64,000 nucleotides of DNA, from positions 1-64,000 of the forward strand of contig JAFZWH010000134.1 in NCBI GenBank assembly GCA_017617415.1. The letters run 5' to 3'. This document shows positions 2,825 to 38,165 of the stretch, in pieces (within the stretch, counting starts at the first letter, position 1; each line of letters opens with the position of its first letter). The notes beneath the pieces were generated by a model, which searched no databases, was not told the DNA's origin, and saw nothing but the letters and a program-made list of their open reading frames with translations. The stretch comes from Victivallales bacterium. Its GTDB lineage: Bacteria > Verrucomicrobiota > Lentisphaeria > Oligosphaerales > Oligosphaeraceae. The position numbers were made by a program, and so were the translations under genes.

Positions 2825-3715
2825 TCAGACGCCTTTCTGATTTTTTCGAAACTGCGTCGGTGAAACATTGAACCGCTTGCGGAAGTGGTAGGCCATGTTG
2901 GGGGCGCTGGAAAAGCCACAACGTTGGGCAATTTCCTCTAGAGGAAAGTTTGTTTTGACTAAAAGTTCCTGGACATCTCGCAGCCGAATGCGCATCAGAT
3001 ATTGATAGGGAGTGTCTCCTGTGCTACGTCGGAAAAGCCGAAAGAAACTCCGTCGGGACATGTTGAAACGGTGTGGTAGCCGTTCAATGTCAACACCTTT
3101 CATATAGTTTCGCTCCATATATTCCAGTGCATCAGGCACGGCGTAGAAATCCGCCTTTTGCCCTTGTTCGGCATCCTGATAGTTGCGTTCCAGCTCCACC
3201 AGCAGTTCAATGAAAAGCGCCACTACGCGGAAACGAAAACTGCTGTGGCGTTCGAGACGCTCCCGCTCAATCGCGTCAGCAAGTTGCTTGACGACTTCCA
3301 GGCTCGCCTGCGAAAGCGTCATCAGCAGTTGTTCCGAACGATGAGACTTGAAAATCCGTTGCGCGAATGGAGTATTGCCGAAGTCCCACAAGGGCAAAGG
3401 CATGCGAAGTTCATTGAACAGAATATTGATAATCTTGAAGTGGTTCTGGTCCAGATAGCCATGACTTCGGCCTCGCTCAATGAGAAAGGTGTCTCCTGCC
3501 TTTAGCGGATAACTCCCGCCCCGAGTCACATGTGTGGCTGTGCCACTATAGACAATGGTCAGTTCGGAAAATTCATGAGTGTGTAATTCGTGAACGGGAA
3601 AACCCTCTATCGACTCCGCTTGCGTGACCCGTAAAGGAAAATCCCGACGCTCAAAATACTCCTGCTCCGGGACAACCAGCAATTTCTCTGATGGATTTAA
3701 GGGAGTATTTGGCAT
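2825..3715 (-). CDS. AraC-family transcriptional regulator with cupin sensor domain
   Basis: A 296-residue one-component regulator. Residues 1-150 form a cupin-like sugar-sensing domain (ELHTHEFSELTIVYSG, then GDTFLIERGRSHGY), like RhaR/RhaS. The last 100 residues hold the two helix-turn-helix units of the AraC DNA-binding domain, ending in EEIAQRCGFSSAPNMAYHF and FNVSPTQFRKN. It is transcribed away from the hydrolase operon that starts at 4100 and shares a 384-base promoter region with it, so it probably controls that operon, which includes a rhamnosidase-like enzyme. The inducing sugar is not visible from sequence. Its stop lies only 12 bases from that of the AAA-ATPase gene. Confidence 0.9.
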   Translation of the reverse strand: MPNTPLNPSEKLLVVPEQEYFERRDFPLRVTQAESIEGFPVHELHTHEFSELTIVYSGTATHVTRGGSYPLKAGDTFLIERGRSHGYLDQNHFKIINILFNELRMPLPLWDFGNTPFAQRIFKSHRSEQLLMTLSQASLEVVKQLADAIERERLERHSSFRFRVVALFIELLVELERNYQDAEQGQKADFYAVPDALEYMERNYMKGVDIERLPHRFNMSRRSFFRLFRRSTGDTPYQYLMRIRLRDVQELLVKTNFPLEEIAQRCGFSSAPNMAYHFRKRFNVSPTQFRKNQKGV

Positions 3716-35814: not shown

Positions 35815-37119
35815 TCAGTCAGGTTCTATGATTTTGGCCGCCCGGCAGGCGAGTTCATCGATATTTTCGGGACGCATCCCATGATAATGGATCTCATCGT
35901 CCATGATGCCTGACAGCCATTGGCAGAGGCGGTTCATCGCGGTGGCGTCATCGCGCGTCATCGCCTTTTCGCCAGGCTGATATGGCCAGGCCGCCGGGGC
36001 CAGCATCAGCAGCCGTCCATCCGCGCAGGCGTCGAAATGACGGCCGGTGGGCTTCTGGAGATTGGAAAAGCTCTTGTTGTGCATCGTGACCAGCGGGAGT
36101 CCGGCAGCCAGCGCCTCGTGGGCGATTTGCCGTTCGCCGTCGGACACGCAGGGACTAATCAGCACCACACCGTGCTGCGCCTGCGCAAACAGATAATCGC
36201 GGAGTTCCTGATACTCCTGGGTATAAAACTCCACCTGCGGTTCACCGGATTGGTCACAGACAATTTTCAGACTACCATTTGGCGTAGCCACGCGGGCATA
36301 ACGGAAAAAACTCCGCGAACATTGAACCCACGCCATTGGCCGTCGCAACAGGCTTGCATTGCCGATGGCCGAAAAATGACCAACCAGCCGGCCGCCAGCC
36401 AGAGGCAAGACCAAATCCCGTACCGCCTTGAATAAATCCGGATGCTGACGCTTCTCCGCCAGCCGGCGCGGATTATCGGCCACGTATGCCAACATCGCAT
36501 CCAACTGCCCTTCGCGGAATAGAATGGTATCGCAGAAACCAGGACTCCAGCGGGGGATGCCCTTACCCGCGCAAGAATGCGCGGGCACGGAACCGTTCTG
36601 TGCTTGCGCATTTTTGCGCAAGTCTTCCCACCGTTTGGCGGCCCCGGCCTTGAAGCCCCGCACCAGAACGCCCAGGGGCCGTGGAAGCGTTTCCGTAACA
36701 AACGGAACAAAGTGAAAATGTTCCGGCATCAGTTGCGCGGCCAGAATTTTCACTTGCGGATAAAGGCGCGGCATCTCTGCCAGAGAATCCAGCACGGCGG
36801 TGCCATCTGGCGTGGGTTCGATAAACCACTTACCCGCACTTTTACCCGCGCTTTTACCCGCGCTTTTACCCGCGCTTTTACCCGCGCAAGAATGCGCGGG
36901 CACAGAACACGCGGGCACGGAACACGCGGGCACGGAACACGCGGGCACAGGGTCGTTCTGTGCTTGCGCATTCTTGCGCAAGTCTTCCATTCGCAGATGC
37001 CCCAGCCACTCGCGCGATCGATCCGCCAAGGTGCAGGTGATCATATAGATTGCGCGCTGGGTATAATCCCAGTTTCGCAGACGGCGCGTCATTCTATGGA
37101 ATGTTTCCCGATATTGCAT
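35815..37119 (-). CDS. REP-associated tyrosine transposase (RAYT) with two in-frame REP insertions and C-terminal Rossmann-like domain
   Basis: A 434-residue Y1-family transposase. Residues 18-30 (WDYTQRAIYMITCT) are the first strand. LMPEHFHFVPF (130-140) holds the metal-binding pair His134-x-His136, and MLAYVADNPRR (209-219) gives the catalytic Tyr212. Two loops are filled by translated REP-like palindromes. Residues about 45-97 read EDLRKNAQAQN, then VPACS repeats and AGKS repeats; residues 165-187 read EDLRKNAQAQNGSVPAHSCA and GK. Residues about 300-420 (GVVLISPCVSDGERQIAHEA, LPLVTMHNKSFSNL, RLLMLAP) resemble a DprA/LOG-like Rossmann fold. ATG at 37119; TTG at 37164 is also possible. RAYTs mobilise REP/BIME sequences as single-strand DNA. 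The domestication state is unknown, but the reading frame is intact. Confidence 0.85.
   Translation of the reverse strand: MQYRETFHRMTRRLRNWDYTQRAIYMITCTLADRSREWLGHLRMEDLRKNAQAQNDPVPACSVPACSVPACSVPAHSCAGKSAGKSAGKSAGKSAGKWFIEPTPDGTAVLDSLAEMPRLYPQVKILAAQLMPEHFHFVPFVTETLPRPLGVLVRGFKAGAAKRWEDLRKNAQAQNGSVPAHSCAGKGIPRWSPGFCDTILFREGQLDAMLAYVADNPRRLAEKRQHPDLFKAVRDLVLPLAGGRLVGHFSAIGNASLLRRPMAWVQCSRSFFRYARVATPNGSLKIVCDQSGEPQVEFYTQEYQELRDYLFAQAQHGVVLISPCVSDGERQIAHEALAAGLPLVTMHNKSFSNLQKPTGRHFDACADGRLLMLAPAAWPYQPGEKAMTRDDATAMNRLCQWLSGIMDDEIHYHGMRPENIDELACRAAKIIEPD
36561..36628. repeat. REP-like inverted pair inside the RAYT gene (distal copy)
   Basis: Two hairpins face each other. CCCGCGC-AAGAAT-GCGCGGG (36566-36585) and CTTGCGCA-TTTT-TGCGCAAG (36603-36622) are flanked by TTA/GCACGGAAC and GTTCTGTG/TCTTCC, which mirror each other. 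This is the layout of a BIME. It is read in frame as about 23 residues of the transposase. Confidence 0.92.
36829..36988. repeat. Expanded REP-like inverted pair inside the RAYT gene (proximal copy)
   Basis: The same BIME as at 36561 but expanded. Five left arms (TTTTACCCGCGC, 12 bases each), one AAGAAT loop, four right arms (ACGCGGGCACGGAAC, 15 bases each), then the inverted partner CTTGCGCA-TTCT-TGCGCAAG ending TCTTCC. Both unit lengths are multiples of three, so the frame is kept and the protein gains AGKS and VPACS repeats. Confidence 0.93.
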
Positions 37120-37198: not shown

Positions 37199-37972
37199 CT
37201 ACAATTCGGGGTCGTAGCCCCAATTGTCCTGAGTGATAAAGCCAGTACGTAAGCCGTCGCCTGCGAAGGGGACAGTGTATATCCTGACGGTGGTTGCGAC
37301 ATGGCAATCCGTATAGGAGACCACTGCGGAGCCTTCGTGTCGGAAATCGACCGTGCCGGACTCATGGTAGGCGCCGAAGCCCTTGTCGCCCTCTTCGGGA
37401 GCGCGGAGATAACTGGTGACTTCGTAGATGCCGGTGTAACTATCCCGGTATCCGGCGTCCGCATTCAGCAGGATGCGAGCCGGACGCCTCACGAGCGAGG
37501 CCTTGAAGCACCGCTTGGTTTTCGCGTTGTAGATATCGAAGCCCAGGCATTCGTTGTAGCCATAGCCAGCATACGGCGTGACATACGACTTGGTATAGCC
37601 GTGTGCAGAGGGACACTGGTAGAGTTTGCTGCTGTCGGCAGACTCATGGGCCGCCAACCCGATGGCCAAGAAGCCAGGTTTGTTCATGGACCAGTTTTCG
37701 TCGTAGCAGGCGTCCCAGCCGCCTTCATAGGTCAGCAGGGTAACGAAATCGTCGTCGAAGTCTGCGGTATAGAGGGTGTGGAACAGCCCGATTTGCCGGA
37801 GATTGTTCACGCAGCTAATACGCTTTGCTTTCGCTCGTGCCTTCGCGAGAGCCGGCAGGAGCATGGCCGCCAGGATGGCGATGATGGCGATGACGACGAG
37901 AAGTTCGATAAGAGTAAAGGAATAGAACGACGATGCGCGATTGCCGCGCACTTTTGCTTTGACCGATGTCAT
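37199..37972 (-). CDS. Prepilin-like secreted protein under a cobalamin riboswitch
   Basis: A 257-residue protein with a 20-residue basic leader ([17 protein letters not shown]) then [17 protein letters not shown] and [17 protein letters not shown], the prepilin motif with Ser at -1 and Glu at +5. The soluble domain carries [38 protein letters not shown], and a C-terminal [18 protein letters not shown] that matches the family's H-x-D-G end. ATG at 37972 with AGGAG about ten bases upstream. The 5' leader contains a cobalamin riboswitch (38036-38165), which is not expected for this family. No B12 gene lies nearby. Confidence 0.9.
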
Positions 37973-38035
37973 GCTGGCAGTTCTCCTGTGTGACGCGCAC
38001 AGAATCTTCCCAGTTTCGTGGGAAATGGTGGAACT

Positions 38036-38165
38036 TCCCGAAGGCTCAGGATCCGACTTCGTTTCTCCAGGACTCCTGGAGGAATGCCATACGGTTGCGC
38101 GACAGCCGGGGATTCTCACCCCGATTCACTGTTGGTGTGCTTTTATAGCACACTTACCTTCGGAT
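38036..38165 (-). promoter_or_regulatory. Cobalamin riboswitch
   Basis: Read on the minus strand, P1 is CCGAAGG (38163-38157) pairing perfectly with CCTTCGG (38044-38038). Between them stand a GTGTGC/GCACAC hairpin and the conserved core GTGAATCGGGGTGAGAATCC followed by CCGGCTGTCGCGCAACCGT, then AAGTCGGATCCTGAGCC. These match the B12-box consensus of cobalamin riboswitches. Downstream, GGGAA...TTCCC and TTCCC...GGGAA can form mutually exclusive hairpins, and CTGTG-N7-CACAG ends at the Shine-Dalgarno AGGAG, which suggests control of translation of the prepilin-like gene. The long P7-P12 arms of the classic class are short here. Confidence 0.85.

Follow-up and report, generated by a model that had tools for sequence, protein, structure and literature searches.

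In-frame REP elements inside the RAYT genes of a clade with DprA-like tails: evidence for probable recurrent insertion

The window studied here (the whole 64-kb stretch of DNA that was analysed) contains on its minus strand an open reading frame, 37119..35815, that encodes a RAYT with two REP-bearing inserts and an additional C-terminal domain (Table 1). An alternative TTG start lies 45 nt upstream of the ATG and would give a product of 449 aa. The RAYT identity, proposed in a first-pass annotation, is borne out by the HFH motif (aa 149–151), by Tyr227 inside YVADNP, by a match to the NCBIfam model NF047646 (REP_Tyr_transpos; E = 7.9e-8, below the model's curated cut-off) and by the structural match of the core to 4er8 found with Foldseek. 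The Y1 transposase fold, the HUH motif and the single Tyr in YxxxNP by which a RAYT is recognized are all present. NF047646 also matched 7/7 clade members tested (best E = 2.2e-19), and the motifs P[DE]HxH and YxxxNP are found in 80 and 81, respectively, of the 81 clade genes. A Pfam search with the window protein returned no match. In its AlphaFold2 model the mean pLDDT is 76.6, with good prediction over most of the core. The gene is adjoined by a pilin-like ORF with a prepilin-type N-terminal motif (37199–38125), which shows 90–93% identity in genomes G001 and G002 and is conserved clearly above its neighbours.

Table 1. Features of the RAYT locus (coordinates in the 64-kb window)
Feature	Position	Strand	Remarks
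RAYT with C-terminal DprA-like domain	35815..37119	-	ATG start at 37119; NF047646, Foldseek core to 4er8
Insert A, in-frame REP pair with arm expansions	36829..36988	-	β-hairpin loop before helix A
REP copy A1	36955..36982	+	tag GTTCTGTG + hairpin CTTGCGCATTCTTGCGCAAG; covariance model
Left-arm and tag expansion, insert A	36901..36950	.	15-nt units, gene strand GTGCCCGCGTGTTCC
REP copy A2	36881..36908	-	tag GTTCTGTG + hairpin CCCGCGCATTCTTGCGCGGG; covariance model
Right-arm expansion, insert A	36829..36880	.	12-nt units, gene strand GCGCGGGTAAAA
Insert B, in-frame REP pair	36563..36628	-	between HUH and Tyr motifs
REP copy B1	36595..36622	+	tag GTTCTGTG + hairpin CTTGCGCATTTTTGCGCAAG; covariance model
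REP copy B2	36566..36593	-	tag GTTCCGTG + hairpin CCCGCGCATTCTTGCGCGGG; covariance model
C-terminal DprA-like Rossmann domain (predicted)	35818..36390	-	AF2 pLDDT 92.4, Foldseek

The last 191 residues of the protein are predicted to adopt the DprA Rossmann fold. The best structural match of this tail is ShosA (Foldseek E = 5.7e-4), DprA structures are matched with Foldseek probabilities of 0.80–1.00 and TM scores (query) of 0.43–0.50, and other folds were not competitive. Comparison with DprA by hhalign (probability 1, E = 0.054) fell short of significance and the Pfam DprA family gave no match; on the sequence profile alone, the relationship to DprA does not reach significance. A separate, normal DprA is encoded elsewhere in the same genome, and our literature search found no paper joining DprA to a REP transposase. 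Such a tail suggests a way for the enzyme to reach single-stranded DNA.

The two in-frame pairs of head-to-head hairpins described in the first-pass annotation were found at the coordinates given there, free of stop codons, and their location in loops agrees with the disorder that AlphaFold2 predicts for aa 64–109 (insert A) and aa 189–200 (insert B), both with pLDDT<50. The peptide EDLRKNAQAQNGSVPAHSCAGK is encoded by the distal pair and EDLRKNAQAQNDPVPACS..VPAHSCAGKSAGK.. by the proximal one, both in one frame. Over the whole window, a covariance model recovered exactly four elements (E<=3e-5), with everything else at noise level; the number of tagged hairpins expected by chance in the window is 0, and the z-scores of ssDNA folding range from -4.7 to -6.6. 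All four lie inside the ORF and the model found no REP outside it in the window, so that the expected arrangement of a RAYT flanked by REPs in inverted orientation is not seen here. Thus, the window gene is a RAYT by virtue of its fold and REP association but not a classical REPtron. The same tendency is seen across the 81 genes, where tag density is 4.8/kb in the inserts versus 0.43 and 0.70/kb in the two 400-nt flanks. The arm repeats of insert A consist of 4.8 copies of a 12-mer and 3.6 copies of a 15-mer. Separate tandem multiplication of both arms of a single hairpin was observed in this insert (36829–36988), in L071 (about 2950–3080) and in L051 (898–1251), with units of 12 + 15 nt in the window and 12 + 18 nt in L051 that form nested stems in ssDNA.

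Homologues were collected from 60 related genomes and from 84,980 species (80 loci kept). Their hosts are metagenome-assembled genomes of Victivallales, Kiritimatiellae, Lentisphaerae and Verrucomicrobia, many from ruminants, together with small numbers of Prevotella, Muribaculaceae and Bacteroidales. Three sites vary in the alignment. Site A is in the hairpin preceding the first helix, site B falls between HUH and Tyr, and site C is in the linker that leads into the C-terminal domain. They hold inserts of >=8 aa in 31, 35 and 44 of the 81 genes, respectively, and these inserts contain 90 perfect hairpins (8 bp / 4-nt loop / 8 bp) in 49 of the 81 genes. The in-frame REPs of the clade stand singly or as head-to-head pairs. 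Hairpin density is 7.6/kb in the inserts, 0.95/kb elsewhere in the ORFs and 0.31/kb when the inserts are shuffled, the related genes being non-independent. An unsupervised search of the hairpin flanks (score 425 against a null maximum of 137) revealed a common 5' tag, GTYCTGYG, next to stems that are lineage-specific. As covariation counts on hairpins that had been picked as perfect would be circular, these were dropped in favour of a stem-blind comparison, in which genes were matched on loop and flanks; of 31 stem pairs changed on both sides, 28 had retained Watson-Crick pairing (comparisons non-independent). The inserts of L056 (G008) lack the tag and were left out of the REP class counts. 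A subclade comprising L124, L125, L128, L130, L131 and L135 has a variant REP with 8–12-bp stems and 3-nt loops around ATCGGCGAT, whose tags resemble GTTCAGTT or CACAGGAC. A second clade RAYT in the window's genome, L059 (G000:C56:77619-78716), carries another hairpin (CCCGCGCT...AGCGCGGG) both inside the gene and upstream.

Insert-site occupancy mapped on the tree implies at least 6, 17 and 13 changes at sites A, B and C, respectively; hence insertion, loss or replacement has been recurrent. Distant homologues had either no inserts or different ones at the same places, which is in line with the first-pass annotation, whereas empty sites in the closest ortholog (L039/L123, genome G003) were not found: both sites are occupied there, and the insertion is therefore older than that split. 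At site B of this ortholog, the first hairpin has decayed and the second has multiplied. Related RAYTs L040, L044 and L047 have no inserts at A and B. The element is a member of a dispersed family and is not exclusive to the window gene, as most clade RAYTs hold their own version. We do not claim that sites A and B evolved in concert, the identities being too short and mixed.

Of 60 tandem arrays in the ORFs, 51 have a period that is a multiple of three, versus 38 of 77 in flanking DNA. If the inserts were functional protein linkers and the DNA repeats incidental, it would make sense that all of them fall in three loops, one of which is the linker to the C-terminal domain; we nevertheless consider this highly improbable, as the peptides are unrelated between lineages, the inserts are disordered in the predicted model and the DNA unit that encodes them is also intergenic and is read in other frames elsewhere.

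Genome-wide REP counts were obtained from pattern and model searches. The core hairpin (<=1 mismatch) occurs at 39 places in the window's genome, compared with one for a reversed-pattern control. The predicted spread of copies through the genome was thus confirmed, and other copies too lie within genes. Exact copies number 18 in this genome (G000), 21 in G003, 5 in G002 and 0 in G001, and 0–1 in the remaining 25 genomes of the family. With a covariance model of tag and hairpin, and with three or more copies taken to define a REP-rich genome among the 60 genomes, a clade RAYT is present in 10 of the 11 REP-rich genomes versus 11 of the 49 others (Fisher 4e-5). The dispersed REP family expected to accompany a RAYT thus exists, both in the 39 places and in a REP class that follows RAYT presence. 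This co-occurrence is the basis for regarding the window RAYT as the probable mobiliser of the REP. Four congeneric genomes share synteny at the RAYT locus; G000 and G003 have the gene intact, G002 and G001 have lost it by deletion, and its fixed place indicates a resident rather than a mobile gene. The deletions in L121 (G001:C38:1217-1546) and L122 (G002:C114:8507-8662) start near aa 50, just before site A.

Three observations count against this association. G002 and G001, which have lost the syntenic RAYT, keep other clade RAYTs (L049, L043); REPs are few, by the covariance model, in 11 genomes that encode a clade RAYT; and G024 has 25 REP matches with no clade RAYT detected. Genomes of genus g6 (G024, G018 and G008) carry 25–44 tagged REPs each. 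Since no clade RAYT was detected in G024 and the inserts of L056 in G008 are untagged, another RAYT may act in these genomes.

Core hairpins were also found in frame in genes for a DUF6259/CBM9 protein, a GH63-like enzyme, the helicases HrpB and SNF2 and an ABC-F protein. In the gene of a glycosyltransferase-like membrane protein (a name read from the sequence, Pfam having given no match), one site holds in-frame REP arrays in G000, G002 and G003 and, in the RAYT-deleted G001, one degenerate copy. The frame and strand in which one and the same REP is read differ from host gene to host gene, which argues that the encoded peptides are by-products. In two congeneric genomes, all 10 of the in-gene spacings between REPs are multiples of three, versus 2 of 15 outside genes, the in-gene class having been assigned by hand and the related genes being non-independent.

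REPs in further genes mean that simple dispersal accounts for some of the pattern. It could be that nothing else is involved, i.e. that REPs insert genome-wide and RAYT loops tolerate them as other loops do, with no preference for their own gene, and in-frame copies in the glycosyltransferase-like and five other kinds of genes listed above speak for this. Such a purely neutral process appears rather unlikely to us in view of two sites in a single 1-kb gene among about 16 in 3.2 Mb, of the location of three of the four REP matches of G001 in its RAYT gene and of the 49 of 81 RAYT genes that carry hairpins. If insertion were uniform, the chance of finding 2 of about 16 insertion sites of the 3.2-Mb window genome in this 1-kb gene would be about 1e-5, which suggests either cis preference or selection, two causes that these data cannot separate.

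Another reading is autoregulation, in which REPs would be kept for the binding of the enzyme to its own mRNA or to single-stranded DNA of its gene, or in which the hairpins would slow translation and so limit the RAYT. Strong folding of the hairpins, their retention through stem replacement and their presence over much of the clade are consistent with such a role; it is made improbable by the variation in sites and copy number and by the 32 of 81 genes without perfect hairpins at the insert sites. Equally hard to favour is an origin of the REPs within the RAYT gene, where they would arise and diversify and then seed the genome. The window RAYT copies are indeed perfect hairpins and most REP matches of G001 are in a RAYT, but the absence of inserts at A and B in L040, L044 and L047 and the repeated changes of occupancy suit gains and losses, with parsimony counts giving no direction.

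We consider it likely that cognate REPs recurrently insert into the resident RAYT gene of a previously undescribed, DprA-tailed clade and that copies survive where they keep the frame in a loop. The probable substrate would be a 28-nt REP in which the tag GTYCTGYG stands immediately 5' of a hairpin made of an 8-bp stem and a 4-nt loop. By analogy with known RAYTs, the clade enzyme would cut the folded single-stranded REP beside the tag and rejoin it elsewhere, and its own gene would be struck above the chance rate, perhaps in cis. The survivors would be insertions whose length is a multiple of three in disordered surface loops, and the encoded peptides would therefore be by-products. REP copies would be renewed while the RAYT is present and decay after its loss. 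More tentatively, these genes may form a RAYT subclass of their own, whose REP transposase, fused to a DprA-like ssDNA-binding module, would recognise REPs of the new GTYCTGYG tag class; the live substrate copies in the coding sequence may then act as a seed that is inherited, renews itself and possibly has an autoregulatory effect.

The notion that a RAYT can harbour REPs of its own has precedents in Quentin et al. (2018; PMC6006769) and Di Nocera et al. (2013; PMC3733652). The former described in-frame REP insertions in tnpAREP genes as unique to and predominant in subclass 2.4 (RAYT group 4), mostly in the interval between HUH and Tyr; as in our clade, the REPs sit in the RAYT gene in a variable HUH-Tyr loop and the frame is kept. 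According to Table 1 of that paper, subclass 2.4 is marked by NH[IFV]H and lacks a tail; it further has a WQ motif and REPs of the long or double-foot kind, tagged GT[AG]G, that also flank the gene. Unlike it, the window clade has the tag GTYCTGYG (as given by the tag PWM, with no GT[AG]G), 8-4-8 hairpins, P[DE]HxH, a DprA-like tail and three sites; among the 81 genes, none has N before the first H of HUH and two have WQ. Di Nocera et al. (2013) catalogue intragenic REPs in many genes and, like the Rickettsia palindromic elements, these are in-frame palindromes in loops or linkers, occurring as singles, dimers and clusters; their tags are GTAG or CGTC, and the section consulted describes no RAYT self-insertion. 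Classical REPtrons (E. coli TnpAREP, 4ER8; Nunvar et al., 2010; PMC2817692) share the HUH/Tyr fold, substrates made of a hairpin and a 5' tag and head-to-head pairs (BIME), but their REPs flank the gene, the tag is of the GTAG type and there is no DprA-like domain. TnpAREP cleaves the folded ssREP beside the tag, and its GTAG tag helps in the choice of cleavage site (PMC8266576). DprA and ShosA resemble the window RAYT in the predicted fold of its C-terminal domain, which differs from them in having no significant sequence match and in being fused to a transposase. The novelty lies in the clade with its tag and tail, in insertion sites ahead of HUH and beyond Tyr, and in how widespread the phenomenon is. 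This RAYT clade of gut Lentisphaerota and Kiritimatiellae lies outside the eight class 2 subclasses of Quentin et al. (PMC6006769) and adds a third type of tag beside GTAG and CGTC. In over half of its genes the presumed substrate lies inside the reading frame, so that single genes yield matched enzyme/substrate pairs, with which co-evolution of tag and stem with the enzyme, as well as action in cis, become testable.
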